Source: Ricordea florida
Taxonomy: Eukaryota; Cnidaria; Anthozoa; Corallimorpharia; Ricordeidae
NCBI GenBank assembly: GCA_949710005.1
Contig: OX453272.1
Location: forward strand, 26,712,130 to 26,776,129
Direction of reading: 5' to 3'
DNA length: 64,000 bases
Under the pieces are notes generated by a model that saw nothing but the letters and a program-made list of their open reading frames with translations, did not search any database and was not told the DNA's origin. Below are positions 14,396 through 35,768 of this stretch, in pieces. The position numbers and the translations under genes were made by a program. Positions within the stretch are counted from its first letter, which is position 1; each line of letters starts with the position of its first letter.

Positions 14396-14499
14396 GTCAC
14401 TTAAACTGATCATATATTAACTACAATGAGCCCCATGATGATGAATACATGCTCAAATTGCCGGACAGTAATTATCTAGTACAAATGGAATTAGATTTA
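14396..14499 (+). pseudogene. TFIIB-like relic, zinc-ribbon part, left of the Polinton
   Basis: An open stretch ending LVQMELD runs straight into the Polinton's left end. In a neighbouring frame it shows TCSNC. The reading frame resumes on the other side of the Polinton as FVCTDCGTYF at 30762. So this is the left half of the gene into which the Polinton inserted. Confidence 0.5.
14494..14499. other. Polinton target-site duplication, left copy (gattta)
   Basis: Six bases gattta before the element pair with gatttt at 30762-30767, one mismatch. Polintons usually make 6-bp duplications. Confidence 0.65.
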
Positions 14500-14767
14500 G
14501 GTAGGGGTAAATCCCCGATTCTGGCACAAAAATAAAAAATCAATTTTATTTTATCATATTTCGATTCTTGTACAAAATAAAAAATTATTTTAAAAGAAAA
14601 TGGCGAATCATGCAAAGTCTCGGCTAAGCCCGCCTGTCAAGAGGAGCCGACGGGCGGAGCGAGCGGAGGGCGAGGCAATCCCCTGTCTAGCCAAGTCTCT
14701 GCAAAGTCTTATGTGAAAATCGGAGGAGATTCTGGCCCGAAATAAAAATAAATTATGGTTTAAAGAA
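14500..14767 (+). repeat. Polinton left terminal inverted repeat
   Basis: Starts ggtaggggtaaatccccg (the right copy begins agtagggg). It is AT-rich except for a CpG-rich patch at about 14630-14690 with complementary segments (cggct/agccg, cccgcc/gggcgg). It ends with ggtttaaagaa, which contains the promoter-like motif for PolB. Confidence 0.92.
14759..14764 (+). promoter_or_regulatory. Promoter-like motif TTTAAA before PolB
   Basis: tttaaag lies inside the terminal repeat, 27 nt before the PolB ATG at 14791. The same motif at similar spacing precedes most genes of the element, and the copy in the other repeat serves the terminal gene at 30468. Confidence 0.55.
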
Positions 14768-14790
14768 TTGTGCCAGAATTAACAATTAAT

Positions 14791-19979: not shown

Positions 19980-19984
19980 TTAAA
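19979..19984 (+). promoter_or_regulatory. Promoter-like motif TTTAAA before the 63-aa gene
   Basis: TTTAAA ends 27 nt before the ATG at 20011. A second shared block, atcttataaatta, lies directly before this ATG and before the capsid gene at 20232. Confidence 0.5.
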
Positions 19985-20010
19985 AATAAACAATTATCTT
20001 ATAAATTAAA

Positions 20011-20202
20011 ATGGTAGCCGAGGAAGAAAAAATAAAATTTAGTGAAAACCAAATTAATCTCATGAAAAAAATTATCAGGAAAAAAATTCTATATATGGAA
20101 GATGGCGAGAAAATTTTTAATATTATGGTTTTAATTCCCGAGGCGAGAGAATGTTTATTAAAACACATTGGTGAGTTAGAAAATAGGACAACGCCGATTT
20201 AA
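20011..20202 (+). CDS. Small charged protein, 63 aa, unknown function
   Basis: Starts MVAEEEKIKFSENQ; mostly charged and predicted helical, with no membrane segment. It lies between the divergent integrase gene and the capsid gene. It has both the TTTAAA motif at standard spacing and the atcttataaatta block found before the capsid gene, which argues for a real gene. I do not recognise a family. Confidence 0.6.
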   Translation: MVAEEEKIKFSENQINLMKKIIRKKILYMEDGEKIFNIMVLIPEARECLLKHIGELENRTTPI

Positions 20203-20203
20203 A
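20198..20203 (+). promoter_or_regulatory. Promoter-like motif TTTAAA before the capsid gene
   Basis: tttaaagg ends 29 nt before the ATG at 20232; tatcttataaattacaatg follows at the start codon. Confidence 0.5.
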
Positions 20204-20231
20204 GGTTAACCAAAGTATCTTATAAATTACA

Positions 20232-21470
20232 ATGACGTCTGAAAAAATTAACCCAAATAGAATTCCAAAAGAACCCTTTGGTTTGAAGGCAGAATCAACC
20301 TTGAATAGAATTACTCTAAATCCATCCTCAGCCAGCCCGGGAGAAACATTATACATAAATATTCCAAAACTCGCTGAGAATTTGGTGATCGTACCCGGAA
20401 GCGTATCTCTTCTATTTGACTTGGATGTTGAGGGTCATGCTAATAATACGGTTGTGAATAATCTGGGTCGCAATCTTGTAACCAGACTAAAAGTTCTTTT
20501 TGGAGGAGAAACATTGCAAGATACTCAAAGATATGATTTATTTCAAACATATCACGATTTATTCTTAACCGAAGAAGAGCGAGAAGATAGATTAAAACAG
20601 GGCATTTCTTCTATAGATATTAGAAGGCATAGAACAAAATCTGGAGATGCAAAAACTGGAATAGATGTAAAAGAAATTGCCCTAGCTAAAGTTCACGGTT
20701 CAAAGTATAGAATACCAATAAATCACCCTATTTTAAACGATCACGGAGTTTTTTATCCGAAAGCGTTGGAAAATCATCTAATATTTGAGATTACTCTTGC
20801 GCCAATCAATAATATTGTTATTTATTCTGATACCACTAAAGCACCATCTTATTCAATCAAAAACTTAGAGTTAGAATATTCTTCAATTTCAAGCGAATAC
20901 TTAGCCCGTGAGGCTCAAGCAACATATCAAGTTGGTAAAGGATTCTTTTATGAAAATATTACCTTACACAAAACTTTTACATTTTCAATTGGCGGTGATG
21001 GTGTTATTAATCAGCATATTAATTTGCCGAGAAGATCAATGACGGGAATATTGTTTTTGTTTTTATTGCCTCAAGCCGCGGGATCAAGGGATTCAGAAAA
21101 TTTTTATAATCCTGGTATATCTTCCGTCGAAATTGATGTTGATGGCGTACCAAATAGAATATACTCTAGAGGAATGATTCCGTCTGATCTTTGGGAATCC
21201 GTGAAAAAACGCTTCCGATCAACGGGACAAATTTCATTGAAAGAAAAAGAATTTTACGCGGATAAGTTTGCTCTTTGGGTTGATACTAGAACTCATCCAG
21301 ATAATGGTATTCATGGCGGCGGACTTGCTCTAAATAATACTCATGATGGTGTGAAAATAGAAATTAAAAGGAAACAAAGCGGATCCGGTACAATAACTTG
21401 TCATATGTTTGTCGTAGCGGATGCAATGCTGGAGATTATGAATTCAAGTTTGAGATCAATTAAGTACTAA
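20232..21470 (+). CDS. Major capsid protein candidate (double jelly-roll type)
   Basis: 412 aa, beta-rich, no membrane segment. Features include PGETLYINIPKL (about 37-48), LVIVPGSVSLLFDLD (about 51-65), DHGVFYPKALENHLIFEITL (about 169-188), PRRSMTGILFLFLLP (about 262-276) and a C-terminal VKIEIKRKQSGSGTITCHMF. I recognise this family as one that recurs with PolB and integrase in cnidarian Polintons; its length and strand-rich pattern fit a double jelly-roll major capsid protein, but the fold assignment is inference. It precedes the packaging ATPase, the usual capsid-ATPase neighbourhood. It could instead be another structural protein. Confidence 0.65.
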   Translation: MTSEKINPNRIPKEPFGLKAESTLNRITLNPSSASPGETLYINIPKLAENLVIVPGSVSLLFDLDVEGHANNTVVNNLGRNLVTRLKVLFGGETLQDTQRYDLFQTYHDLFLTEEEREDRLKQGISSIDIRRHRTKSGDAKTGIDVKEIALAKVHGSKYRIPINHPILNDHGVFYPKALENHLIFEITLAPINNIVIYSDTTKAPSYSIKNLELEYSSISSEYLAREAQATYQVGKGFFYENITLHKTFTFSIGGDGVINQHINLPRRSMTGILFLFLLPQAAGSRDSENFYNPGISSVEIDVDGVPNRIYSRGMIPSDLWESVKKRFRSTGQISLKEKEFYADKFALWVDTRTHPDNGIHGGGLALNNTHDGVKIEIKRKQSGSGTITCHMFVVADAMLEIMNSSLRSIKY

Positions 21471-21491
21471 CCGAAGGGAAGAATCTGACCG

Positions 21492-21497
21492 TCTAAA
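21492..21497 (+). promoter_or_regulatory. Promoter-like motif TCTAAA before the ATPase
   Basis: gtctaaaaac ends its AAA 27 nt before the ATG at 21524, supporting that start over the ATG at 21509. Confidence 0.55.
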
Positions 21498-21523
21498 AAC
21501 ATAATGTTATGATACAAAAAATC

Positions 21524-22150
21524 ATGGAAGATTTACGAGATAAAATACCATTCCATTGTATTATAACAGGACCCACAAACTGTGGAAAAACAAAGTACTT
21601 AATTGAACAGCTCCGAGGCCCATTCCGAAAAGTTTTTGAATATATTGTGTTAATTTGTCCGACTTATTCTAAAAATAAAACTTATCATAATTTTGCCTTG
21701 GGGGATAAACATTTCTATAAATTGTCGCCGGATGCTAGTAACGTTGAGGAGATTAATGAATTACTAACTGATTGCCAAACTTTATTCTCCGGAACCAATA
21801 CGCTAATAATTCTAGATGATTGCGCAGTATCCACTGATCTGAAGAAAAGATCCAATAAATTTATTGATTTGGCGTTCTCCGGAAGGCATCACGGATTATC
21901 AGTTTGGGTTCTAACCCAGCAATTAACATCCATAGCAAAACCATTCCGCGAAAATGTAGCTTGCGTTGTTACTTTCCATAATCCATCTCAGAAAGGTATG
22001 AAAATGTTTTTCGAAGATTACGGAGGTGATTTGGATTATGAATTGGAGAAAAAGTTTGTTAAACTCCTGAAAACCGAAAAATATTCTAGGTTATGTTTAT
22101 CTTTGCGATATCCATTTAATTGCTATTTAGAGATTCCCGAGGTGGTTTAA
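21524..22150 (+). CDS. Packaging ATPase (FtsK/HerA, A32-like)
   Basis: 208 aa. Predicted to pump element DNA into capsids. Walker A GPTNCGKT (about residue 16), Walker B LIILDDC (about 95) and a sensor-like SVWVLTQQLTS (about 126) are all present. An in-frame ATG at 21509 would add five residues; I prefer 21524 (MEDLRDK) because the promoter motif is 27 nt away and the relic copy at 31813 starts at the same residue. A six-base gap separates it from the next gene. Length fits Polinton ATPases. Confidence 0.92.
   Translation: MEDLRDKIPFHCIITGPTNCGKTKYLIEQLRGPFRKVFEYIVLICPTYSKNKTYHNFALGDKHFYKLSPDASNVEEINELLTDCQTLFSGTNTLIILDDCAVSTDLKKRSNKFIDLAFSGRHHGLSVWVLTQQLTSIAKPFRENVACVVTFHNPSQKGMKMFFEDYGGDLDYELEKKFVKLLKTEKYSRLCLSLRYPFNCYLEIPEVV
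22126..22131 (+). promoter_or_regulatory. Variant promoter-like motif TTTAGA before the 174-aa gene
   Basis: tttagagatt ends 26 nt before the ATG at 22157, inside the ATPase coding end. The same TTTAGAG variant precedes 23421 and the relic gene at 33363. Confidence 0.4.
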
Positions 22151-22156
22151 CAAAAG

Positions 22157-22681
22157 ATGTCTAATATTGAAGATTACATTGAAGAAAAAACTGACCGACC
22201 GGAGGGAGGATCTGGAAAATATAATGAGGATCTTGAAGTTAAACAAGAATCTCTTGCGATTCTCGCCGCTCTTGGAACCACAAAGGAATATTTAGGGGTT
22301 GATATGAGTCTGGGTGATGTAAAAAAATTATCGGAAAAAGATGTAGAAAAATATTTTAATCGTTACCAAGCAGTAATGGGTAAGAAAATTAACGGAGGAT
22401 TAGTAGATTCATCCCTTCAATTAGTTTCCAAAATTATTTCTTATTTAGTTCCGGTTGATGATATAGAATCTCTTTGCAATGATCTGAAGAATGATGATTT
22501 GGTTAATCGTGAACTATCAAACATTGTGGGCCTCTTAGCATTGAAAGCAGGAAGACTGGCAGCACTTGCTAGCGGTATATTTCAAGTAGCTAAACACGTT
22601 AAATTCAACAAAAATCAACAAGAACCAGTTAATGATAGCACAACTGAGTATAATACTAAGCAATATGCTGAAGGGGGTTGA
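22157..22681 (+). CDS. Conserved Polinton protein, 174 aa, unknown function
   Basis: Soluble, helical, acidic N-terminus; core EKDVEKYFNRYQAVMGKKI and GLLALKAGRLAALASGIFQV. A relic homologue follows the relic ATPase at 32505, so gene order is conserved between two elements. I recall the family from other cnidarian genomes next to the same partners. Function unknown; a virion or scaffold role is guesswork. Confidence 0.75.
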   Translation: MSNIEDYIEEKTDRPEGGSGKYNEDLEVKQESLAILAALGTTKEYLGVDMSLGDVKKLSEKDVEKYFNRYQAVMGKKINGGLVDSSLQLVSKIISYLVPVDDIESLCNDLKNDDLVNRELSNIVGLLALKAGRLAALASGIFQVAKHVKFNKNQQEPVNDSTTEYNTKQYAEGG

Positions 22682-22699
22682 TACTGTGTATTAAACAGA

Positions 22700-22705
22700 T
22701 CTAAA
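22700..22705 (+). promoter_or_regulatory. Promoter-like motif TCTAAA before the 141-aa gene
   Basis: gatctaaaaac ends its AAA 27 nt before the ATG at 22732. Confidence 0.5.
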
Positions 22706-22731
22706 AACTTATTTACAGCATCCAAATAACA

Positions 22732-23157
22732 ATGTCTGAACAAAATGAACAAGTTGAGCAAATTACGGCAGATCCCAAACCTGAAAATAGAGATACTAAA
22801 AAGAAGGAGAAAGATCCAAAAAAAGTCGCAGCAGGAAAGAAATTAGCTGAATATAATAAAAAAGCAAAAGATGCATTAGCTAGGGAGATGAAACGCGAAG
22901 AAAAAATTAAACAGGAAGAGGAGCAAAATGAAAATACAGTTAGCGAAGCGAAATCGTGGATTCCAGAGCTATCTTTTACTACTGTTTTATCCGTTATTGG
23001 TTTAGGATTTACAGCATTTGATCTTTTTATGAGATATAAGGAAAAAGCTAGGGTTGAATATTCTAATAGGATACCTGATTTATCACAAGTCCCCCAATTA
23101 CCCCAAACCTCAAAAATTCCATTGCATCTAACTCCAAAATCTTTAGGAATGGAATAA
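22732..23157 (+). CDS. Lys/Glu-rich single-span membrane protein, 141 aa
   Basis: Charged N-terminal half (KKKEKDPKKVAAGKKLAEYN, then a likely coiled coil) followed by one hydrophobic span, TTVLSVIGLGFTAFDLFM (about 83-100), and a Pro-rich tail. A relic homologue at 33034 keeps the order. Probably membrane-associated; role unknown. Confidence 0.72.
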   Translation: MSEQNEQVEQITADPKPENRDTKKKEKDPKKVAAGKKLAEYNKKAKDALAREMKREEKIKQEEEQNENTVSEAKSWIPELSFTTVLSVIGLGFTAFDLFMRYKEKARVEYSNRIPDLSQVPQLPQTSKIPLHLTPKSLGME

Positions 23158-23175
23158 TCTCAAAAGTCATTTAAA
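23070..23175 (+). promoter_or_regulatory. Region before the 72-aa gene with motif TTTAAA at 23170-23175
   Basis: catttaaaag at 23169 places its AAA 28 nt before the ATG at 23203. The relic counterpart uses TTTAGA at 33332 with 26-nt spacing. Confidence 0.4.
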
Positions 23176-23202
23176 AGTTTCTTAATGATACAGTAAAAAA
23201 TT

Positions 23203-23421
23203 ATGTCAACTGAAAACAAACTTGTGAAAACTGTAACTGATTCAGCCGTACTTATTGGATTGGGAGCTGGGGTTGGGTATTTAGCCAAAAAGATGATGAA
23301 AGAATCATTTTTGAGCGACCCATCCTCAAGTATTACAAATTATGCAAAGTGGGTAGCAGTATTATCCGGAAGCATGTACCTTAAAACATATTTAGAGGAT
23401 CAAAAGATTTTACCAAAATAA
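23203..23421 (+). CDS. Small two-span membrane protein, 72 aa
   Basis: Hydrophobic segments AVLIGLGAGVGYLA (about 15-28) and YAKWVAVLSGSMYL (about 47-60), with DPSSSITNYAKW between them. A relic homologue lies at 33363. The stop codon overlaps the next start by one base (taatgg). The family recurs with these neighbours in cnidarians, from memory. Possibly a virion membrane component. Confidence 0.72.
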   Translation: MSTENKLVKTVTDSAVLIGLGAGVGYLAKKMMKESFLSDPSSSITNYAKWVAVLSGSMYLKTYLEDQKILPK

Positions 23422-23819
23422 TGGCATTAGCATCAATAGCAATGATGATTGGAGGAGCTGTATTAAATGCGTCGGCATTTACTGGAGGAAATATTCTTGC
23501 AAAATATTTAACTGGAAGAAAGGTTGATACAGAAAGAATAAGACACGATAAAGCAATGGAAAAATATCAAAGAGATTACGCCGAATATCAGGAAAAAAGA
23601 CTAAAAAGGATTGATTGGGAAAATAAGAAAAAAGATGAAAAATATCAAGCATCAAAAAATATTTCGACTACAAATCAGGCTTTTGAATTGTACGCTCAAA
23701 TGAATGAGCCAAAATTCTCTGATTATTACAAACCAAGCGATGATCAAAAAACAGGAGAAATGGCATATGTCGGGGCTGGAATGTTAGGTTTAGGTTACGC
23801 GGCCAGTAAAATATTATAA
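23421..23819 (+). CDS. Membrane-associated protein, 132 aa, Gly-rich ends
   Basis: N-terminal hydrophobic ASIAMMIGGAVLNASAFTGG, a charged helical middle (RHDKAMEKYQRDYAEYQEKR), and a C-terminal hydrophobic VGAGMLGLGYAASKIL. Starts on the last base of the preceding stop; a TTTAGA variant motif lies 25 nt upstream. A relic homologue sits at 33577. Function unknown. Confidence 0.7.
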   Translation: MALASIAMMIGGAVLNASAFTGGNILAKYLTGRKVDTERIRHDKAMEKYQRDYAEYQEKRLKRIDWENKKKDEKYQASKNISTTNQAFELYAQMNEPKFSDYYKPSDDQKTGEMAYVGAGMLGLGYAASKIL

Positions 23820-23829
23820 ATTATTTTTT

Positions 23830-23859
23830 GTTATGTAACCCGTAATTGGGTTATATAAC
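23830..23859. terminator. Palindromic hairpin between convergent genes
   Basis: gttatgtaaccc-gtaatt-gggttatataac: 12-bp stem with one G-T pair, between the + gene ending at 23819 and the - gene ending at 23875. An almost identical hairpin is at 29280-29309. A shared 3'-end signal for both strands is inferred. Confidence 0.6.
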
Positions 23860-23874
23860 ATAATCTTAATCTAT

Positions 23875-24711
23875 CTAATTTTCCATTAAATCAAATGATG
23901 AAAGGCTTAAGGAATCTGAATATTCATCATCATTCATAAAATCTGCAGCTGATTTACTATCTGAAATAATTACTTCTGGATTATATTTTTTGCGCGGAGC
24001 TAATCTTTTAATTTCCTTTTTCGTTTCAATAAGAGCATCATAAAGTTTTACTTGCAAGGAAATACGCGCGCCAATAAATATTGATTCAATTTTGATTGAG
24101 CACTCTGCGTGGCAACCTTTATTGATTAAATCCTTGGGGTTTATTGTCTCATTGCAATCCTCACTTCTAATATCATAAAACTTTGTAAGAAATTCTCCCT
24201 TTTTGTACGAAATTAATTTGGGATATAATGTCGGCCCTCTTTCAGGAACTCTTTGCATATAAGGTTTGTTTTTACCATCTTCAATTTTTTCCATTTTCCA
24301 ATAGAGAGGATTAAGACCTCCCTTTGTTTTCGTAAGATCAGATCTTTCCAACTCAAATAGTTCAATTTCTTCTTTATTTTCTAAAATATGATCAATGCAG
24401 CAATCTACTATTTCATTAAATTTTTCTATCCATTTTTCCTCTTCATCGGTGGGTTTATTTCCACTCCATAAACATAAAGGAAAAGAATAAGTTGAAAAAC
24501 TTTCGGAAACTCCAAATGAATACAGCCGGTTGGTTGGAATAACTAGTTCTCCTTCAGTTCCATCTTCATTTTTTGTAAAAATTTTTATTCTTCTAAATTC
24601 AACCTTTGGTTTTTTATCTGGAACTTCGCCTAAGATTGGTTTGGAAAAGATCATGCTTGTTTTAGGATTATAAGTATTAATATCAATTAATTGTGTATTT
24701 TCGTTCATCAT
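23875..24711 (-). CDS. Conserved protein, 278 aa, possible single-strand DNA-binding OB-fold
   Basis: Soluble and beta-rich. Residues about 17-75 and 160-225 have the strand pattern of viral ssDNA-binding proteins: TLYPKLISYKKGEFLTKFYD, then CSIKIESIFIGARISLQVKL. The C-terminus is acidic and serine-rich (DDEYSDSLSLSSFDLMEN), as often in such proteins. A protein-primed polymerase needs an ssDNA-binding partner, and no other candidate is present, but the assignment is inference. Starts ATGATG; a TTTAAA lies 32-35 nt upstream on its strand. Confidence 0.5.
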   Translation of the reverse strand: MMNENTQLIDINTYNPKTSMIFSKPILGEVPDKKPKVEFRRIKIFTKNEDGTEGELVIPTNRLYSFGVSESFSTYSFPLCLWSGNKPTDEEEKWIEKFNEIVDCCIDHILENKEEIELFELERSDLTKTKGGLNPLYWKMEKIEDGKNKPYMQRVPERGPTLYPKLISYKKGEFLTKFYDIRSEDCNETINPKDLINKGCHAECSIKIESIFIGARISLQVKLYDALIETKKEIKRLAPRKKYNPEVIISDSKSAADFMNDDEYSDSLSLSSFDLMEN

Positions 24712-24760
24712 TTTATTTTCTTTTATTTTATATTTTTTTTATTTTAAATCATTTTCTTCG

Positions 24761-24766
24761 TCTAAA
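24761..24766 (+). promoter_or_regulatory. Promoter-like motif TCTAAA before the 326-aa gene
   Basis: tctaaag ends its AAA 28 nt before the ATG at 24794 and only 13 nt before an earlier ATG at 24779, favouring the later start. Confidence 0.5.
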
Positions 24767-24793
24767 GATTTCATACTGATGAGTAAAAAAATA

Positions 24794-25774
24794 ATGGCGG
24801 AAGGAGGAGATTTAGACCCAACTGAACTAAACGAAACAAAAAATGATAATGGCGGCTTGGAATGGGATGATACAATTTATTTACCGCCAATTACAAAAAC
24901 ATCCAAATCTTATCCAAATTATGGTTATGGTGATGAGGAAGAAGAAACTTCATTTGGCGCTAATGAAAAAACTCTATTATTAGGAAAAACAAAAGAAGAA
25001 GAAGCACAAAAGGAGATAAAAGAGTTTTATTTGAAGCCAAAATTTAAACAATTTTTTTCATCGCTCAAAGATATAGGGCAAGGAATAGAATTACCTTCTA
25101 TTAGATTGAAAAACAGAAGTAATGCGGCTGAATATGTTCTAAGCGACGGGGAATTTAGAAGATATGATGAAAAAAAGGGAATAATGGAAAAACTTAAACC
25201 TGGAAAATTAAAAGATGCTTTAGGCCCAAGTAAACAAGAAATTTTAGAAGAAAAAAATAGTGATAAAAAAAAGACAAAAGAATCACAAAACAAAAAGAAG
25301 GAAAGGATAAAATTTCTTAAAGAACAACCATTGAAAACACCAGAGGTGAGAACAGAAATAGAGACATTAGATAGAGAAGTTGAAGAGGATGAAAATGAAA
25401 TGGAAAGCATTGATCGAGAGTCTGAGCAAATACTCGAAACAATGTCTTTGAGAGAGCGAATAAAGTATATCTTTAAAAAGTATGGATTTACAGTAACTGC
25501 TATTCTCATTTCTGTAGGTACAGTAATTGGGGTGATAATTTCTAATCTTTCAAAGGGTTTATCTGCTTTGGGTAGAGGAGTTGGAAATGGCCTGAAAACC
25601 CTTGGAAAAAAATTAGGCGAAATATTGCCGGGGATGGTTGGCGCAATAGTTAGCTTTCTTTTCAAAACAGCGGGTGAAGTTATTGGGTTTTTGGGTAAAA
25701 ATGCTTGGTTATTAATAATGGCGGTTGTTCTATATTTTGTGGAACAAATTAAAGGTGGGAAGAAGAGAAAGTAA
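24794..25774 (+). CDS. Coiled-coil protein with C-terminal membrane segments, 326 aa
   Basis: Starts MAEGGDLDPTELN; an in-frame ATG at 24779 would add five residues. The N-terminal half is acidic, followed by a Lys/Glu-rich coiled coil (about 150-225). The C-terminal region has hydrophobic spans TVTAILISVGTVIGVIIS, MVGAIVSFLFKTAGEVIGFL and NAWLLIMAVVLYFVEQI, separated by Gly/Lys stretches. I recognise this C-terminal pattern from other cnidarian Polintons. Likely a virion or membrane-remodelling protein; function unproven. Confidence 0.75.
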   Translation: MAEGGDLDPTELNETKNDNGGLEWDDTIYLPPITKTSKSYPNYGYGDEEEETSFGANEKTLLLGKTKEEEAQKEIKEFYLKPKFKQFFSSLKDIGQGIELPSIRLKNRSNAAEYVLSDGEFRRYDEKKGIMEKLKPGKLKDALGPSKQEILEEKNSDKKKTKESQNKKKERIKFLKEQPLKTPEVRTEIETLDREVEEDENEMESIDRESEQILETMSLRERIKYIFKKYGFTVTAILISVGTVIGVIISNLSKGLSALGRGVGNGLKTLGKKLGEILPGMVGAIVSFLFKTAGEVIGFLGKNAWLLIMAVVLYFVEQIKGGKKRK

Positions 25775-25778
25775 CAAA

Positions 25779-25784
25779 TTTAAA
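25779..25784 (+). promoter_or_regulatory. Promoter-like motif TTTAAA before the 199-aa gene
   Basis: tttaaaga ends its AAA 29 nt before the ATG at 25813. Confidence 0.5.
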
Positions 25785-25812
25785 GATATCGCGGTGATCA
25801 GTAAAATACAAT

Positions 25813-26412
25813 ATGGATGACTACAATAAAATTTACCCTGTATTACCCAATAATACAGATCCTATTAATTTCAGACTTCAAAAATCAAGCGAGGTATTAC
25901 AAAATCTTGAGAAAGAAATCAAACATTACGAAGAAGTACGAAAAAAATATAATAGAGCGAGAGGAATATGTTCAAAAATTAGTGTTTCTGGTGGTTTGAT
26001 TTCAGTTATTCTATCAGCAAGCGGATTAGGAACTTCTCTCACAGGTTTTGGTGCTATTGTTGGTGTGCCTTTGGGTGTTGTTGGCGGGTTTTTTGGTGGA
26101 TTATCGGTTGGATTTGGAATTGCAGCAAAAAAACTTTCTGGTAAAGTTAGTAAACACGAACAAACCACCGCAATTGCAAAATCAAAATTAAACACAATTA
26201 ACGATTTGGTTTCAAAAGCTCTGAAAGATAATGTTATATCCGACCAAGAATTTTCCATAATTTTGGCGGAGTTGGAAAAGTTCCAAAAACTAAAACAAGA
26301 AGTTCGACAAAAATTTAGAAAAGACGCAGAAAAAAACTTCGACATGTCGATTATAAGGAAGAAAGTTCGCGAAGATATATTGAAAGAACTTACCGGAGGG
26401 AAAGGACATTAA
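25813..26412 (+). CDS. Gly-rich hydrophobic-core protein, 199 aa
   Basis: A charged helix (about 20-50), a long Gly-rich hydrophobic stretch (SVILSASGLGTSLTGFGAIV through VVGGFFGGLSVGFGIAAKKL, about 60-108), then an amphipathic helical C-terminus with AKSKLNTINDLVSKAL and FSIILAELEKFQKLK. The family recurs in cnidarian genomes in my recollection. The layout resembles membrane-inserting proteins, but no function is established. Confidence 0.75.
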   Translation: MDDYNKIYPVLPNNTDPINFRLQKSSEVLQNLEKEIKHYEEVRKKYNRARGICSKISVSGGLISVILSASGLGTSLTGFGAIVGVPLGVVGGFFGGLSVGFGIAAKKLSGKVSKHEQTTAIAKSKLNTINDLVSKALKDNVISDQEFSIILAELEKFQKLKQEVRQKFRKDAEKNFDMSIIRKKVREDILKELTGGKGH

Positions 26413-26472
26413 AGCTTGTATATGAGAAAACTGAAGTTGGTTGTAATTGTTTTACATCTTATTCTTAAAAGA

Positions 26473-26478
26473 TCTAAA
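26473..26478 (+). promoter_or_regulatory. Promoter-like motif TCTAAA before the 532-aa gene
   Basis: gatctaaagatc ends its AAA 31 nt before the ATG at 26509. Confidence 0.5.
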
Positions 26479-26508
26479 GATCACATTATTTGAAACACAA
26501 AGAATAAG

Positions 26509-28107
26509 ATGTTATTTGATGATTTCAGAACTCGATATCCAAACGCGAACCTAAATAAATTTTCATTTGTGAATGATCCATTTGGTGGATATATTAAATG
26601 GAAAGTTAATGGAACAACAATTATGTCCGATGATGATCCTTCTGGGGAAACTTGGACTGCAAATCTCTCAAATAATTTGAAAACATTATTATGGGAAGAT
26701 TTGGGTAAAGAAAATAAAGTTAAGGTAAGTTCATTTCCAAAAAGTTTATCATTTACAAAACAAACATATCCAATACCTGGAGTTAGATTCGATGAATTTG
26801 CAAACGATGTAACAAAAATGTTAATACTTTTAGATATATATGTTTCAGAAAAAGATCATTTCACCGCATCAATGAAAAATGTTTTTAAAAATCAAACTGT
26901 GGAGCTCACTAGCGGAAAAGAAGCCAGATCTTGGTTGAGTAAACCAAATATTAATCACTGGCCGCAGCAATTAAACATGGCGGTTTGGTGCGCCACATCT
27001 GGATGTGGTGTAAGTTTAAGTGGTATTTTTAGTTACCCAAAAGTTATTAGAAGTTTTTTTGTATTTCACGTGTACTTTACCATCAGAAGAATAATATATG
27101 AATTAAGTGTACCATTACCCGACGAAAAAACTTTTTCTTCAAAAAATAACCCATACAACAAAAATGCTTATAATCGTTTATGCGGAGAATTTGGTTTAAG
27201 TAATAATCAAGATTACAAGGGATTGAATAAACCTTTAGCTGATTTTAGATTTAAGGGTGGCGCAAATCATGGAGCCGGAGATGTATTTATCGATTATGGT
27301 AAAGGATACATCCCTCCTGGAGGTGGTAGTTCACAAGCAGTAGGAGGAGGAAAACAAAATGTTAGAATTGTAAGAAATTACGACCCTGATGCAAATATTT
27401 GGCCAAGCGATTCTGCTAAATTTTCAGATTATGGCGGAAAAGCAATAGATGGAAATTTAATATCCATGCTGCGAAATGATCATTTCGTTGATTTTCAATA
27501 TTCATGGTTTATACCAGAATCTGGATATGGATTAACAAAGGCGGGATTGGGAAGAATAAATAGATCGATTGAAGCTTTTGTTTATTGTGTTTTAGGATCT
27601 CAAGTTAATACCAGAACTTCAATTGTTAGTAAAGGAGGGGGCGGTTTTGAAACACAACAAAACTTTATAACTTTATTTGAAAGTTCTGTGATTGAAAATG
27701 ACATATCCAAATCAATTCAAAGATACCAAACAGCTGTGCAAGAATCAAAATCTCGTCTTGATTTAGCTGTGGCTCCCGGCGTTTGGTTAATGCCAAGCAA
27801 TTTAATAATAAATACAGAAAGCATTATTGGGTACAATAATGATTTGAAAAGGGTAACAGAAGATATGACCTTTGGAGTAAATAATTCAATAAATGTTGAG
27901 ACAAAAACCGTTGGAATACCTCACAGTTTAGGAACTTCAAAGGTTTTATTAAATACCAATCCTCAACCAAGTAATCCTAAATTAAGCAATAACGATAAAT
28001 CTGACAATGAGGAAAAAGTTAATAATATAGAAACATCTTCTCATCAAAATAATCTTATTGTTTTAATGTTTGCCGGAGGATTATTGTCTTGGTTTTTATT
28101 TCGTTAA
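26509..28107 (+). CDS. Tail-anchored protein, 532 aa, probable virion surface or membrane protein
   Basis: Large, mostly soluble and beta-rich; a hydrophobic patch VIRSFFVFHVYFTIRRII (about 179-196); a Gly-rich loop IPPGGGSSQAVGGG (about 268-281); a low-complexity Asn/Ser/Lys stalk (about 480-510); and a C-terminal membrane anchor LIVLMFAGGLLSWFLF. No signal peptide. The recurring cnidarian family is known to me only as uncharacterised. A surface or minor structural role is inferred. Confidence 0.72.
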   Translation: MLFDDFRTRYPNANLNKFSFVNDPFGGYIKWKVNGTTIMSDDDPSGETWTANLSNNLKTLLWEDLGKENKVKVSSFPKSLSFTKQTYPIPGVRFDEFANDVTKMLILLDIYVSEKDHFTASMKNVFKNQTVELTSGKEARSWLSKPNINHWPQQLNMAVWCATSGCGVSLSGIFSYPKVIRSFFVFHVYFTIRRIIYELSVPLPDEKTFSSKNNPYNKNAYNRLCGEFGLSNNQDYKGLNKPLADFRFKGGANHGAGDVFIDYGKGYIPPGGGSSQAVGGGKQNVRIVRNYDPDANIWPSDSAKFSDYGGKAIDGNLISMLRNDHFVDFQYSWFIPESGYGLTKAGLGRINRSIEAFVYCVLGSQVNTRTSIVSKGGGGFETQQNFITLFESSVIENDISKSIQRYQTAVQESKSRLDLAVAPGVWLMPSNLIINTESIIGYNNDLKRVTEDMTFGVNNSINVETKTVGIPHSLGTSKVLLNTNPQPSNPKLSNNDKSDNEEKVNNIETSSHQNNLIVLMFAGGLLSWFLFR

Positions 28108-28143
28108 TGTTTTGATTACATAATCATTAGATCAATCAAAACA
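28108..28143. terminator. Palindromic hairpin between the 532-aa gene and the Rpb7-like gene
   Basis: tgttttgatt (28108-28117) and aatcaaaaca (28134-28143) form a perfect 10-bp stem. It begins just after the + gene's stop and overlaps the stop of the convergent - gene. Confidence 0.6.
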
Positions 28144-28599
28144 TAATGTTCCAATACATTCAAAATCTCCTTCATTAAATCTAACTGCTTTTATTTCTAC
28201 TTTTATTTTATCGCCCTTTCCAATTCTGTTATTATTATTTTCAAATGTATTGGAAAAGGCATCAAAAGTATAATCTTTTATATAAATATGCGGGATTAAA
28301 GTTTTTACTTTACCAAGAACATTAACAAAAATACCATGATCATAAACCATGCACACTGTCCCGCAAACTTTTTGATTAGCTTTTGGCTTGTAAGTTTTCA
28401 CCTCAATTTCTAAAAGAAAAGTAGTATCTTCATTATGCAAAATTTTTATTATTTGCTCCACAGAAATAATATGCCCATATTCCTTATCAACTTTTCTTTC
28501 TAATTTCTTTTCAATTGTCCTAAATAAATGACTCATAATATTTTTATCGAGATATTTGGGTTTGAGATATATTCTCTTTTGAATTATTTTATTTTCCAT
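28132..28599 (-). CDS. rpb7-like: Rpb7-like RNA polymerase subunit with S1-type domain
   Basis: 155 aa, close to the usual Rpb7/RpoE' length of about 170. The N-terminal half has the tip-domain pattern (RIYLKPKYLDKNI, KKLERKVDKEYGHIISVEQI, then a short EIEVKTYKPKANQKVCGTV strand pair). The C-terminal half reads as an S1/OB domain: GTVCMVYDHGIFVNVLG, LIPHIYIKDY, a GKGDKIKVEIKAV strand and FECIGTL near the end. Rpb7 works with Rpb4 as the stalk of RNA polymerase II and binds emerging RNA; large cytoplasmic DNA viruses carry their own versions. In a Polinton it suggests element-specific transcription, or recruitment of a host or helper polymerase. No partner subunit was seen here. Confidence 0.78.
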   Translation of the reverse strand: MENKIIQKRIYLKPKYLDKNIMSHLFRTIEKKLERKVDKEYGHIISVEQIIKILHNEDTTFLLEIEVKTYKPKANQKVCGTVCMVYDHGIFVNVLGKVKTLIPHIYIKDYTFDAFSNTFENNNNRIGKGDKIKVEIKAVRFNEGDFECIGTLCFD

Positions 28600-28607
28600 T
28601 TTCCTGG

Positions 28608-28613
28608 TCTAAA
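28608..28613 (+). promoter_or_regulatory. Promoter-like motif TCTAAA between the divergent Rpb7-like and 211-aa genes
   Basis: ggtctaaaaac ends its AAA 25 nt before the ATG at 28638. For the divergent gene (start 28599) a TTAAA on the minus strand at 28625-28629 lies 26 nt upstream. Confidence 0.5.
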
Positions 28614-28637
28614 AACTAATATAATTTAATCAAAAAT

Positions 28638-29273
28638 ATGTTCAGTATTACAATGTGTGATTCGGAAACTAGAATTTATTTAGATCCTCCGCTGAAAAAT
28701 ATTCGGGAGATACAGCTTCTGGATTGCAATATAAAGACCAAAAGATTGATTAATTTCAAGGACCACCAGACATTATTCAATGATAAGAATAAATTCTTCA
28801 TAAAAATTCAATCCGGTACATATTCTCTTCGTAATTTTCAATCAGTCTTTCTTAATGATCCTGAAGTGGAAAAAATAACAATAATTGAGACTGATACTGT
28901 TGACTATCTTTATTCAAATAAGAACTTCAAAATTGGTCTTTCTAGTGGGTTGGCGTTTGGTTTAGGAGTGCCTGAAGTTATAAATCCTGGTAAATTATAC
29001 CCCATAAATATTCAGATTAAGGAGCCTTTGAGACTTATGTGCAGTATAGTGGATAATAAGTCATCATATATGAATAACACTAAATATGGAGAACTTGTGA
29101 AACTCACACCATCTAATTTACTAGCAAACATACCCTCAAAGGATTATCCGGCAATTCCGGTTCAAAAATATGAGAGCCTCATAAACCACTTTGATTTAAC
29201 TATCTTAGACACTGAATGGAAAAAACTTGATTTAAGGGGATTGCCAATAACTTTTAGTTTAAGATTTAGATAA
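28638..29273 (+). CDS. Minor capsid (penton-like) candidate, 211 aa
   Basis: Beta-rich with IYLDPPLKNI at the start (about 12-21), GTYSLRNFQSVF (about 60-71), and a C-terminal FDLTILDTEWKKLDLRGLP followed by ITFSLRFR. This opening and closing pattern matches proteins I recall as jelly-roll pentons of cnidarian Polintons. No membrane span. Confidence is limited because the fold is inferred from pattern only. Confidence 0.55.
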   Translation: MFSITMCDSETRIYLDPPLKNIREIQLLDCNIKTKRLINFKDHQTLFNDKNKFFIKIQSGTYSLRNFQSVFLNDPEVEKITIIETDTVDYLYSNKNFKIGLSSGLAFGLGVPEVINPGKLYPINIQIKEPLRLMCSIVDNKSSYMNNTKYGELVKLTPSNLLANIPSKDYPAIPVQKYESLINHFDLTILDTEWKKLDLRGLPITFSLRFR

Positions 29274-29279
29274 ATTTTT

Positions 29280-29309
29280 GTTATATAACCATTTATTGGG
29301 TTATATAAC
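29280..29309. terminator. Palindromic hairpin between convergent genes (second copy of the motif)
   Basis: gttatataacc-atttatt-gggttatataac: an 11-bp stem; the right arm and following cataat match the hairpin at 23830-23859. It lies between the + gene ending at 29273 and the - gene ending at 29325. Confidence 0.62.
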
Positions 29310-29324
29310 ATAATTATTTTTAAA

Positions 29325-30023
29325 CTAATCTATTCCCCATCTATTTTTCAAACCCCTCAACTCTTCAAAATCAATGCACCAATCTAAAACTCTAATTGGA
29401 TCCCATGCTGTGGCCATCAAATCATTATGCAAATCATTAAAAAATTTCTTTTTGTGTAATACCTTATGCGCGTCTTTGCATAATGTGATTTTAATTGAAT
29501 TAATAATAAAATCATTCATGTTATTTGAATAATCTTCATCTTCATCTTCTTCGTCTGATTCTACATATTCATCTTCTTCATATCCATTTTCGAGATGATA
29601 AACTTGCATAAGATATTTTTGTTTTTGATAATTATTATAATAAATTTCATTCGCATTTTCCATTAATATCTCAGAAATTTCATCAGCGGGCAATATAAAC
29701 CCCTCATCAAAATCTATTTCATTATCTTCGCCGCAATAATATTCGAAAATTTCCCCGTCATTCTTTCCAGAATATATAATTTCAATATCTGGCCAACTAT
29801 CTTTATCTAAAAACCCATAATTTTTTGATATTACTTTTAACAAATCCTTGTTCATTGAATCAATGAAATCGCTGATTTCCTGCTCTTTTTCATTAGAATA
29901 CAAAATAGTAATAATTCCATTTTCAATATATTCTTGACTTGACAAACCTTCCATTTTTGATTGATAATTCTTTTTTCTTCCTTTTAAATCATAATTTTTT
30001 TTTGGCCGAAATGCGGGTTTCAT
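29325..30023 (-). CDS. Acidic protein, 232 aa, unknown
   Basis: Basic N-terminus (KPAFRPKKNYDLKGRKKNY), then soluble sequence with a long Asp/Glu run (YEEDEYVESDEEDEDEDYS, about 146-164). The C-terminus has an aromatic, Trp-rich pattern (WDPIRVLDWCIDFEELRGL). Its start overlaps the end of the preceding - gene by 35 bp, so the two may share a transcript. I do not recognise a characterised family. Confidence 0.65.
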   Translation of the reverse strand: MKPAFRPKKNYDLKGRKKNYQSKMEGLSSQEYIENGIITILYSNEKEQEISDFIDSMNKDLLKVISKNYGFLDKDSWPDIEIIYSGKNDGEIFEYYCGEDNEIDFDEGFILPADEISEILMENANEIYYNNYQKQKYLMQVYHLENGYEEDEYVESDEEDEDEDYSNNMNDFIINSIKITLCKDAHKVLHKKKFFNDLHNDLMATAWDPIRVLDWCIDFEELRGLKNRWGID

Positions 30024-30468
30024 AACGTAATATTAAACATTCTTTGCAATAATGCTTTTGTTTATTATGTTCGCATATTTGCGATCCGCCGCATTCTTTA
30101 CATTGTTGTTTTTGTTTGCCATGTTTACATATCCGCGACCCACCGCATTCTTTACACTGGTACTTATATTTAATGTGCGAACATATTTGTGACCCTGCGC
30201 ATTCTTTACACTGATGCTTATTTTTATTGTGAATACATATTTGCGACCCGCCGCATTCTTTGCAGAAATATTTACAAATTCCGTGGGCACAAACATAATT
30301 ATTATTAATTATAACTTTTTGTTTTTTCTCATTAATCTCTTCTTCTGAAAATTTCCCTATCTCTTCAATCAATTCTGCTTTATTCATTCCATATAATCTT
30401 TTAATTTTTAACCCCACCGCAATTTTTTTCAATTGCGGCAAATATAATTTTTGCAATTTTTGTTCCAT
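29989..30468 (-). CDS. SAP domain plus CxxC/CxH zinc-repeat protein, 159 aa
   Basis: Residues about 5-40 fit a SAP motif (LPQLKKIAVGLKIKRLYG, MNKAELIEEIGKF), a DNA- or chromatin-binding helix pair. From about 57 there are repeats of roughly 19 residues with C-x-H and CKECGGSQIC units (five knuckles), likely zinc-binding. It is the terminal gene, transcribed inward from the right repeat, whose TTTAAA motif lies 29 nt before the ATG. Similar Cys/His repeats occur in giant viruses and protists, from memory. Likely nucleic-acid binding; function unknown. Confidence 0.7.
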   Translation of the reverse strand: MEQKLQKLYLPQLKKIAVGLKIKRLYGMNKAELIEEIGKFSEEEINEKKQKVIINNNYVCAHGICKYFCKECGGSQICIHNKNKHQCKECAGSQICSHIKYKYQCKECGGSRICKHGKQKQQCKECGGSQICEHNKQKHYCKECLILRYETRISAKKKL

Positions 30469-30493
30469 AATTAATTTAATGACGCATCTTCAT

Positions 30494-30761
30494 TTCTTTA
30501 AACCATAATTTATTTTTATTTCGGGCCAGAATCTCCTCCGATTTTCACATAAGACTTTGCAGAGACTTGGCTAGACAGGGGATTGCCTCGCCCTCCGCTC
30601 GCTCCGCCCGTCGGCTCCTCTTGACAGGCGGGCTTAGCCGAGACTTTGCATGATTCGCCATTTTCTTTTAAAATAATTTTTTATTTTGTACAAGAATCGA
30701 AATATGATAAAATAAAATTGATTTTTTATTTTTGTGCCAGAATCGGGGATTTACCCCTACT
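30494..30761 (-). repeat. Polinton right terminal inverted repeat
   Basis: Inverted match to 14500-14767 over 268 bp; only the outermost base differs by eye. It contains the promoter-like motif for the gene starting at 30468. Confidence 0.92.
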
Positions 30762-30767
30762 GATTTT
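30762..30767. other. Polinton target-site duplication, right copy (gatttt)
   Basis: Pairs with gattta at 14494-14499; it is also part of the interrupted TFIIB-like reading frame. Confidence 0.65.
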
Positions 30768-31806: not shown

Positions 31807-31812
31807 AAAATG

Positions 31813-32495
31813 GATTAATTACGAGATAAGGTCCCATTCCATCTAATTATAACGGGGCCGAGGGTTTGCCAAGAACGATCCTAGATTTATAGTGTTATCG
31901 CCGGATGCTAGTAACAGTGATGAGATTAACCAGTAATTAACTAATTGCCAAAATTCGTTTTCTGATACTAATTCACTAATAATTTTAGATGATTGTGCCT
32001 TTTCTAAGGAATTAAGGCAACGCTCTAATAAGGCCATTGGTCTAGCTTTTTCAGGTAGGCACGATAAATTATCTGTATGGGTATTAACTCAAACAATTAA
32101 CAGAGGGTCTCAATGGGGTTAACCGTTAGCCGTAAAAAAAAAAAAATAGCCGTTAGGCGTAAATATTGAAAACTTTTAGCCGTTAGCCGTAAAAAATATT
32201 AAACTTTAGCCGTAAAACAGCAAAAAATATTAACCGTTAGCCGTAAAATTCACCACCCCATTGAGACCCTCTTAACTTCGTTATCCAAACCTTTCCGAGA
32301 TAACGTTGCCTGTGTAGTTGCATCCATAATCCATCTGAGCCTAGTACAAAGATGCTTTTTGAGTATTTCGCTGGGCATTCGGATTGAGAAACTCGCAAGA
32401 AATTTATACAGCTACTCCGATCTCAAAAATACTCAAGACTATGTTGATGTTTATGGCATCCGTACTCATGCTATTAAGAAATTCTTACCGTTATA
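31813..32495 (+). pseudogene. Relic Polinton packaging ATPase
   Basis: Starts at the same Met as the intact ATPase, then loses most of the region after Walker A by deletion and frameshift. It keeps LSPDASN, a Walker B LIILDDC and SVWVLTQ. A small repeat element at 32102-32276 splits it; after that, SKPFRDNVACVV resumes. It is the first of five relic genes in the same order as the intact element. Confidence 0.85.
32102..32276. mobile_element. Short inverted-repeat insertion with agccgt mini-repeats
   Basis: agagggtctcaatggggt and accccattgagaccctct bound 175 bp; flanking taac suggests a 4-bp (or ttaac 5-bp) duplication. Inside are four or five copies of a ttagccgtaaaa-like unit. Confidence 0.7.
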
Positions 32496-32504
32496 GATTA
32501 AAAG

Positions 32505-32968
32505 ATGTCAGTTAAAGAATATATGGAAGCGCCTGGGGTTAAACCAAAAGATAATGCATCATCTGAAGATAATATTGAAACTAAACGAGAGAGCTTTGCT
32601 ATCCTAGCTTCTTTGGGAGTTATAAAGAAATATCTTGGCACTGAAATAAATGTTGGTGAAATTAAGAAGCTCTCTCGTAAAAATGTAGGAAAATATTACA
32701 ACCGATACAAGTTGTACTGGGAAAGCAATTAACTAGTGGGTTAGTAGAATCTGCTCTCCATACTGCATCCAGAGTGATATCATATCTTTTACCTATTGAT
32801 GACTGTGAATTGTTAAAGACTAATAAAATGATGAGTTGGTAAAGCGTAAAATAAGTAAATTTTCTGGACTATTAGTACTACGTGGAGGTCGTTTTGTAGC
32901 ACTTGCTAGCGGTCTATTCAGATTTGCTAAACACATTTAAATTAGGAGATACTGAAGAGAATGACTAA
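32505..32968 (+). pseudogene. Relic of the 174-aa Polinton gene
   Basis: KRESFAILASLGVIKKYLG and NVGKYYNRYK match the intact homologue; a frameshift near 32705 and later stops break it, with IGGG-like ALASG sequence still visible near 32900. Second gene in the conserved order. Confidence 0.82.
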
Positions 32969-33002
32969 ATTGTTGAGCTTGATAGTAATACTGAACCGGT
33001 TA

Positions 33003-33336
33003 GTTAAAGATTACTGCATCGCTAAGAACAAAGTTGTCAGAAGAAACTGAACAAATTACTAAAGAACCACCACCTGCTAAATCGGAAAAGAAAAAGAACC
33101 CTAAAAAGGTAGAAGCAGGACGTTGGATACAAGAATATAATCGGAGGGCTCGAGAGGCATTAAAGTGGGAAACAAAACGTGTGGCTGAATCTGAAGTACC
33201 TAAGGAATCATCTCTAGGGTTAACGGCTTTGGATTTGTTTATGAAATACTACCGAACGCCAACACCGAAACCAGTTATATACCCCAATCCACGTGGTAGG
33301 GCTGAACCTACACAACCTATGGTTGGTATGATTTAG
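33003..33336 (+). pseudogene. Relic of the 141-aa Polinton gene, with conserved upstream motif
   Basis: KKKNPKKVEAGRWIQEYNRR matches the intact protein; the ATG has become TTG (33034) and the membrane span is partly deleted, leaving ALDLFMKYY. gttaaag at 33003-33009 sits 26 nt before the start, like the intact element's promoter motif. Confidence 0.78.
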
Positions 33337-33569
33337 AGATTCCACTCTACGTAAGTTAGAATATGAGTGCACAAAATAATAAGTTAGTGAAAATAGCAAC
33401 TGATGCTGCTGTGTTGGTTAGATTATCTGTTGCAATGGTTATATCAGTAAAAATACTTATGAAGGAATCATTTATCGGTGACACATCATCGAGTATTACA
33501 AATTTCGCTAAATGGGTCGCAGTGTTATCTGGAAGTTTAGCATTAAGAAACGCAAAAGATCTTACCTAA
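33332..33569 (+). pseudogene. Relic of the 72-aa membrane gene, with conserved upstream motif
   Basis: TDAAVLVRLSVAMVIS and DTSSSITNFAKWVAVLSGS match the intact gene; the C-terminus is frameshifted. TTTAGA at 33332-33337 lies 26 nt before the ATG at 33363. Confidence 0.8.
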
Positions 33570-33576
33570 AACCATC

Positions 33577-33716
33577 TAGTTACCAAATATATATTGCATC
33601 AATTGCGTTAATGATTAGTGGGGCTACTTTAAATGCTATCTCCGGTAAAAAAGCGGATAAAGAAAGGGTCAGACATTATAAAGCTACGGAAAAATACCAT
33701 CCAATACAGATGACAT
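33577..33716 (+). pseudogene. Relic of the 132-aa Polinton gene, truncated
   Basis: IASIALMISGATLNAISG and DKERVRHYKATEKYH match the N-terminal half of the intact protein; the similarity ends at 33716, where the relic stops. Confidence 0.75.
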
Positions 33717-35755
33717 AACGCCAATAACACTGTATTTCCCTTTTTTCCGTTTTTTCACACACAGGATATCATTTTCCCATTAGACTTCCGTATCGCCCCA
33801 TACTTCTTTGTGCATGCTATAGCTGAGTTTTTAAGGGTACTGCACGCTAAAATATTTCTTGTTTGCAAAGAACAAAGCAGTACAGATACATTATGCATAA
33901 TTAAGAATGAGGTGATACGGAAATCTAACTTAAAAATGATATCCTTTGTGTAAACAAGGCGAGGAGAAGGGAAATATAAAACACACGAACACCTAGCTAA
34001 CTTGTTGAGATAAATATATAGAACCGGCGTCTTGGACGCATGTTCATCCAAAAATTGGCTGGTCATCATTAGCACGCAAAGGTGTGGGGCCAGAGGAATT
34101 TATTCCACCGATTGGTCTGTTTTTCCGTGTCTCTTCTTCTTCAGTGGTCGGTCTTGCCCTTCGTATATTCGTTCTTGGTTTAACGAGTCGTAGACGCTAC
34201 GCGTAATGACCAGATTGGTAGTGTGCTAGAGTTACTGGGCACTCTGGAGACCCCGCTCAACCTGGTGCTTAACCCACAAGAGCTTCACCTAACACTGGAG
34301 TGTTAGCACACTCTATGTATGTTGACGTTGAACGGGCAAAGAGAGGAGTACCAGGTCTCACTCGTATAAATCTTTATTAAGGTCAATAAAAAAAGACAAG
34401 AAGGAATGAATTTTACAACTTCTAGGGATACATCTAATCAGCACTGAAATTTGAACTTGACCTAATAAGCTCATAACGTTTCTTTAAGTAAAGGGAAAAC
34501 GTCATGCGAAATCTCTTATCAAACGAAGTTTTGGCCATTCAGTTAAAGAATCTTTTGATCACTTGAGTTTCCTATTTTTATTTCTTTTTCCCTACGAAGA
34601 TAATTGATGATGCCTAAACTTCAAAGCAGTTGGGGTTGATCCTGAAAGACTAAAATCTGTTCTGATTAAAAGCTTCACAGCAAAGCTCAACACAATGGTA
34701 CTGCTCTCCGAGAAACATTCTTCAGTTAAGTACAGTCTACATTTAAGCATCACGTTTATAAGCACTATACTACAAAAAGCGGTTAATCTGTGCAGTTAAG
34801 CTTAATCTATTCTAGGCCAATAAACAGCTGACATTCGTAACGCTTCACGGTCTCACTCCTTGACATGCATGTGTTCCGGTGTTGGACTGCAAATGTATAG
34901 TTTGTCAGAATCCATTCACCATTTATTTGCCAGGGGTAAGTAGCAAATCTCACTCTAAAAGGCAGCTGCATTGTCCACCCCGCCTTTTGGTCGGGTACCC
35001 ATTTCCCCTTCTCGATGAATGTGCTCTATGTAGTAGGCCAGATTTTCATTGCCTCGCACATTACGCATCTCTACATCTTTCCCTTGCTGGTCTCCTATCT
35101 TATCCTTTGGGGGGATGCAACTGGAAAGAATAAAAAACACATCTTCATTACACCTTGGTCAGTACACATGGAGTATGATCCGGCATGTTTACGTGGTCAT
35201 CGATTCACTTTTATAGTCAGCACGCGTTGCTCATAAGTATCATATTCATGAGATATTTAGTAGTGGATTGAAAAGAATCCCATGTAAATATCAATATATG
35301 ACAACCTACTCCTCCCCCATTGTCTTTCATTGTTAATCATTACGATGTGGTCATTGGTTGTCTTCTATAGTTGGCATGCTATGGGCTGGCCATGGGTTTA
35401 TTCGTGAAACCCTTGTCAATGACTTGGCGAGGATCTCATAGATACACCAATATATGGTAATATATTCCTCGCTACTGTCTCAAATTGCTCATAGAGGTGT
35501 GATATTATTTTCTATTGACAGGCCAAGGGTATATCCATGAGATTCTTCCCTTGTACACTGAAAATCGTTAGATCATTGCAAATTACTGTTCATTTTTACA
35601 GCCCTCCGAATACCGATTACATCCCTCCTATGTCAATATTCCCTAGGTATAATATATAGATTTAGCCAAGCCTAAAAGTGGGGCTCCCGTTTAGTACTTT
35701 CATTTCACTTTAAACTGTAAAAGCATTCTAAAATATTGCGAAGGAATTCACAAAC
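33717..35755. other. Intergenic stretch, nothing recognised
   Basis: About 2 kb of mixed composition with short chance frames only. No inverted-repeat element, RNA gene or protein similarity was visible to me. Confidence 0.5.
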
Positions 35756-35768
35756 GTTTTTAATTGTA
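35756..35768. other. Target-site duplication, left of Penelope copy 1
   Basis: gtttttaattgta is repeated exactly at 38098-38110. Confidence 0.8.

Follow-up and report, generated by a model that had tools for sequence, protein, structure and literature searches.

A Polinton in the genome of Ricordea florida carries a gene whose product, judged from its sequence, is a divergent, full-length homologue of the RNA polymerase subunit Rpb7, with the two domains in the order Rpb7-N and then S1, and comparison among copies makes the homology secure. The gene is recurrent but accessory in a multicopy Polinton family. In the window, by which we mean the whole stretch of 64,000 nucleotides that was analyzed, this rpb7-like gene is a 155-amino-acid (aa) ORF on the minus strand at positions 28132 to 28599, with matches to both the Rpb7-N and the S1 domains.

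The original prediction had placed this gene in a Polinton, and the terminal inverted repeats (TIRs), integrase, and packaging ATPase around it support that placement. The element spans 16,260 bp (14501 to 30760) and holds 16 ORFs, all with open frames, between 270-bp TIRs that are 100% identical, the left one (14501 to 14770, plus strand) being 100% complementary to the right one with which it pairs (30491 to 30760, minus strand). Its flanks, GATTTA (14494 to 14499) and GATTTT (30762 to 30767), form a direct repeat matching at 5 of 6 positions; a 6-bp target-site duplication is a trait of Polinton/Maverick elements. Among the encoded proteins are an rve integrase of 336 aa (18969 to 19979, minus strand; Pfam rve, E 7.7e-9), an A32-type packaging ATPase of 213 aa (21509 to 22150, plus strand; Pfam Pox_A32, E 6.3e-12), and a DUF2738 protein of 278 aa (23875 to 24711, minus strand; Pfam PF10927, E 7.8e-58). 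A presumed major capsid protein of 412 aa (20232 to 21470, plus strand) has 657 relatives and a weak Pfam Capsid_N match that lies below the cut-off (E 6.2e-4). The 1406-aa protein (14791 to 19011, plus strand), which we take from motifs read by eye to be a protein-primed DNA polymerase B, has an Endonuclease_7 insert (Pfam E 3.7e-5), but none of the polymerase families in Pfam matched it at E <= 1. The rpb7-like gene is convergent with a 532-aa gene (26509 to 28107, plus strand), whose protein had no Pfam match at E <= 1, and divergent from a 211-aa gene (28638 to 29273, plus strand), its neighbor across copies. The right end is occupied by 232-aa and 159-aa genes (29325 to 30468, minus strand), the latter with a Rho_N domain (Pfam E 6.4e-6), and the remaining ORFs had no Pfam match near a cut-off. 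Adenovirus-type proteases are usual, not universal, in Polintons; none was matched by Pfam among the 16 ORFs, a profile search that can miss such a protease. Nor did any of the 16 ORFs match other polymerase-subunit families, Rpb4-like families included.

Several features of the element and its surroundings merit separate mention. The 159-aa protein (29989 to 30468) combines Rho_N with Cys/His-rich repeats (CKECGGSQIC) and is perhaps a nucleic-acid-binding factor, while in many copies the 232-aa and 159-aa genes are replaced by distant versions (232-aa protein 23 to 93% identical; loci L081 to L108), so that the right end resembles a variable cassette. About 1 kb to the right of the intact element lies a decayed second Polinton (31810 to 33700) that retains pieces of the ATPase and of the 174-, 141-, 72-, and 132-aa genes in the same order, at approximately 37 to 76% identity, with no Rpb7 match. 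Further on (35736 to 37889), a long ORF appears by eye to be reverse transcriptase-like with a GIY-YIG-type end, as in Penelope-like elements. DUF2738 is among the domains listed as enriched in Hydra in the available portion of the Hydra viridissima genome paper (PMC7642931), and perhaps such elements account for that enrichment.

The window copy alone provides modest evidence of Rpb7 homology. Its residues 71 to 140 match Pfam S1 (E 2.6e-6; 28.1 bits against a cut-off of 22), and residues 10 to 53 match SHS2_Rpb7-N (E 4.9e-5) at 23.8 bits, slightly below the cut-off of 24.8. Among NCBIfam models, archaeal rpoE' (PRK08563) matched with E 5.7e-12 and TIGR00448 with E 2.4e-8, each under its curated cut-off, and a phmmer search of PDB sequences found archaeal Rpo7 (E 4.3e-4) and yeast Rpb7 (E 7.3e-4). 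Comparison across copies carries the case further. Both the Rpb7-N and S1 families were matched by 13 of 13 diverse copies (E <= 0.01), and a profile built from these 13 found animal RNA polymerase II (Pol II) RPB7 at E 2.8e-8, aligning copy residues 6 to 152 with RPB7 residues 7 to 163. The nine top-ranked hits of this profile were Pol II RPB7 chains, followed by a plant Pol V subunit in tenth place and then archaeal Rpo7 (5.2e-4). An hhalign comparison with 21 archaeal Rpo7 sequences gave a probability of 97.3 and an E value of 1.7e-11 over 142 columns. The profile searches thus favor Rpb7, and the protein had been rightly read as an Rpb7 tip domain followed by an S1/OB domain at nearly normal length. 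The N-terminal domain is strongly conserved across the element copies in the 13-copy alignment, and in every copy aligned (13/13 in each of two alignments) the loop that we presume to be core-docking is about 7 residues shorter and missing its glycines. In cellular Rpb7, this tip loop serves to dock the subunit on the core of the polymerase. A structure model, built from 3 sequences only, had a mean pLDDT of 32.4, too low for judging the fold. Chance similarity and a pseudogene were also considered as readings of the rpb7-like gene and set aside.

We searched the host genome (538 Mb in 48 contigs) for further copies. Of 212 candidates, 150 were scored, and 149 of these lack an internal stop; their identity to the window copy falls in groups of 88 to 100%, 68 to 75%, and 59 to 71%. 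A PF03876 search, in which 150 of 207 candidates were scored, contributed 51 more element-type loci, and the host genome therefore holds at least 201. The median NG86 dN/dS was 0.25 in one and 0.24 in the other of the two groups analyzed, and 0.30 for pairs drawn across them (276 pairs of 24 sequences, with single pairs ranging from 0 to 0.66), a pattern indicating that the gene is under purifying selection. Its position between the convergent 532-aa gene and the divergent 211-aa gene, singled out in the original prediction, was found in all 41 distinct loci examined in this genome, the window included (24 from a set of 28 loci with four duplicates, plus 14 and 3); in one of them, L118, the 532-aa protein was matched over its last 46 residues only. 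The 211-aa gene itself gave 4674 loose first-look candidates in the host genome, and of the 150 copies scored, none fell below 84% identity with that of the window and 149 had no internal stop. The host genome seems to be very rich in Polintons.

The host-genome search showed the gene to be accessory within one genome. Among the 150 best 211-aa matches, which represent the nearest elements, rpb7 lies alongside 19 and is absent from 131, and since so many close relatives do without it, the gene is not essential to the element. We picked six rpb7-less elements from the best 211-aa matches with no rpb7 match nearby, and in each of the six the 532-aa gene is followed by 46 to 60 bp and then by the 211-aa gene. 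These gaps contain an arm, TGTTTTGATT, in 5/6 cases, and a TYTAAAG box and AATCAAAACA in 6/6. Where rpb7 is present, these arms pair into a hairpin at the junction between the 532-aa gene and rpb7, which in the window is an inverted repeat, ATGTTTTGATT/AATCAAAACAT, with a 16-nt loop (28107 to 28144) that spans the ends of both genes; of 37 copies, 36 have its 10-bp arms. Its loop differs among copies in both length and sequence, the strict box being kept in 8 of 36 loops, and a 27-nt segment of the loop of locus L106 recurs unchanged in the promoter stretch of locus L128. The simplest reading is that rpb7 was likely inserted between an old promoter of the 211-aa gene and the 211-aa gene itself. 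Alternatively, an identical empty site would result if rpb7 were lost through recombination between AATCAAAA repeats; it is solely the relic boxes in the loops that favor gain over loss. Across 36 loci, the identity of rpb7 correlates only partly with that of its neighbors (Mantel r of 0.46 with the 532-aa tail and 0.43 with the 211-aa protein), and discordant pairs occur both ways: in 12 of 630 pairs, the identity of rpb7 exceeds 92% although that of the 211-aa protein is under 62%, and in 40 of 630 the 211-aa protein exceeds 80% although rpb7 is under 70%. We therefore consider it likely that the rpb7 module has been exchanged between element backbones by recombination.

The regulatory sequences of the element include a recurrent upstream box. 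The motif TYTARAR, which was found in the same sequences on which it was tested, so that its P value is overly favorable, occurs within 60 bp upstream of 13 of the 16 Polinton genes versus 9% of background windows, lying at -30 to -37 from the ATG in 11 genes and at -17 or -18 in two. In its strict form, it is absent before rpb7, the integrase gene, and the 232-aa gene. The 38-bp divergent promoter between rpb7 and the 211-aa gene (28600 to 28637) contains, in the direction of the 211-aa gene, TCTAAAA and, in that of rpb7, TTTAGA, and in 37 of 37 copies a single shared box reads TYTARAR in the former direction and TTTAGA, at -14 to -28, in the latter. The shared promoter motif of the original prediction holds for most of the genes but not, in its strict form, for rpb7, which has only the reversed variant. 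At the opposite ends of genes, the three nonoverlapping convergent gaps have much stronger folding than their mononucleotide-shuffled counterparts (z -4.9, -2.8, and -4.4). These include hairpins in the gap between the 132-aa and DUF2738 genes (23820 to 23874; z -4.9) and in that between the 211-aa and 232-aa genes (29274 to 29324; z -4.4). The other 12 gaps, including the overlapping polymerase/integrase pair, showed no such folding (z -1.3 or higher).

Taken as a whole, these observations are best explained, if only tentatively, by an accessory Rpb7 module that acts as an element-specific polymerase stalk. Under this model, the element Rpb7 would join the host Pol II, or its Rpb4, on element DNA, and its S1 domain would bind the emerging transcript. 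Element transcripts would then be favored, most simply through 3'-end formation at the convergent hairpins, or alternatively through changed initiation at the TYTARAR boxes. There is precedent for such a stalk, since the accessible part of one source describes a lone Rpb7-type stalk without Rpb4 in the polymerases of African swine fever virus (ASFV) and vaccinia virus (VACV), which probably binds RNA as it emerges and links transcription to capping and to the formation of 3' ends (PMC10881513). We prefer Pol II to the polymerase of a helper virus because the integrated copies lie in nuclear DNA, because the nearest profile is that of Pol II RPB7, and because no other polymerase subunit was recognized in the element. 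Against the stalk model stand the lack of a strict promoter box before rpb7, the 131 of 150 nearest elements that lack the gene, and the recovery, at E <= 1, of just two relatives from outside this genome.

The shortened docking loop, found in every aligned copy, also speaks against a stalk and makes repurposing of the Rpb7 fold a serious rival, if a rather doubtful one. In that case, the protein would join no polymerase and would instead serve as an RNA-binding or decoy protein, for instance by binding Rpb4 or transcripts, and so dampen host transcription or protect element mRNA. That S1 scores better than Rpb7-N in the window copy and that no Rpb4-like or other subunit was recognized in the element are both consistent with such a role. 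However, repurposing sits less easily with the retention of both domains in full-length order and with the high conservation of the N-terminal domain among copies.

We regard it as improbable that transcription of the element depends on a large DNA virus infecting the same cell, to whose polymerase the element Rpb7 would adapt or for which it would compete, much as virophages live on giant viruses. Large viruses do encode Rpb7, the Megavirus set being given as RPB1-2, 5-7, and 9-11 in the part of the source available (PMC11464507), and boxes about 30 nt before the ATG together with hairpins at convergent ends recall the layout of yeast virus-like elements with a virus-type polymerase, as far as the accessible text describes it (PMC6211774). 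Nevertheless, no helper is known here, and among the cellular sequences compared it is Pol II RPB7 that comes closest. Rpb2 is also not multiplied in the genome: of the 14 Rpb2-type pieces matched, 13 lie at three intron-split loci and the remaining one stands by itself, and the core gene has been multiplied neither by these elements nor by recognizable viral inserts.

No relative was confirmed when IMG/VR was scanned with Rpb7, DUF2738, the 532-aa protein, or the capsid protein, the last both singly and as an alignment. PF03876 matched none of 13 viral records, which are 13 of the 19 contigs from an Rpb2 search and are all possibly fragments. Prokaryote genomes likewise yielded no Rpb7-like relative. 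At E <= 1, the protein database returned two relatives of the rpb7-like protein from outside the genome; one (P0002) clears both Pfam cut-offs and groups with the own-genome copy L111 (tree support of 99), whereas the other (P0003) clears neither. No contig of either of their lengths (13855 and 14749) occurs among the contigs that carry the 59 relatives found for the 211-aa protein, nor among those of the 120 capsid relatives listed out of 657.

The host has polymerase genes of its own. Three non-element places in the PF03876 search are host genes, two of which we read as RPC8-like and RPA43-like, and the host RPB7 is intron-split and closely resembles animal RPB7. Because two element copies compared with the partial host RPB7 were only 20 to 25% identical to it over 104 columns, recent capture from this gene appears unlikely. 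Recent capture with carriage as a neutral passenger, for which one might cite the accessory nature of rpb7 and the general knowledge that elements can pick up host genes, is disfavored to the point of being scarcely credible by this low identity to an intron-split, animal-type gene, by the grouping of element copies in one deep clan (support of 100, branch of 1.85 substitutions per site), by dN/dS values of 0.24 to 0.30, and by the 149 of 150 frames without stops. On so long a branch, the tree does not place the clan. The original suggestion of element-directed transcription or of a captured polymerase stays a conjecture; the 16 ORFs gave no other polymerase-subunit match, no strict box precedes rpb7, and recent capture of the host RPB7 is unlikely.

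Like Polinton/Maverick elements and meldviruses, the element has TIRs, an rve integrase, and a packaging ATPase and, presumably, a capsid-type protein and PolB. The available portion of one account of Polinton/Maverick elements and of meldviruses with replication genes resembling those of adintoviruses, and with capsid genes of the kind found in larger DNA viruses, mentions no polymerase stalk subunit (PMC11071296). The protein shares with cellular Rpb7/Rpo7 (Pol II RPB7 and archaeal Rpo7) a two-domain order, near-normal length, and significant profile matches, yet it is only about 20% identical, has a docking loop about 7 residues shorter, and is encoded by a mobile element. As with ASFV vRPB7 and VACV Rpo18, Rpb7 is encoded here without Rpb4; in the passages available, however, those viruses encode a whole polymerase rather than a single subunit, and ASFV vRPB7 has an extra C-terminal domain that the element Rpb7 lacks (PMC10881513). 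Yeast cytoplasmic virus-like elements offer a further parallel, being described in the accessible text as linear elements that have a promoter motif in common and stem-loops ahead of termination sites (in our element, hairpins predicted from sequence), but their genes include those for a two-subunit polymerase, a helicase, and a capping enzyme, whereas here there is only the stalk homologue (PMC6211774). Within the literature covered on Polintons, adintoviruses, virophage-like elements, and Hydra, which took in few subscription journals and not bioRxiv itself, the portions available contain no report of an Rpb7-like gene in a Polinton.

It is possible, although we hold the idea with some doubt, that an animal Polinton lineage steers a polymerase by means of one subunit: the element stalk would join or replace the host stalk on Pol II, recognize element transcripts, and so give promoter- or terminator-specific transcription without a polymerase of the element's own, while the stalk gene would spread as a module. 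According to the part of the source available, RNA polymerase subunits are encoded by all cytoplasmic Nucleocytoviricota, and a lack of them is taken to indicate replication in the nucleus (PMC11253617). That division does not accommodate a small element of which about 200 copies, integrated in nuclear DNA, maintain a stalk homologue under selection. With closely related elements in one genome that have or lack this single gene at a defined site, the question of how Polintons transcribe their own genes becomes testable.
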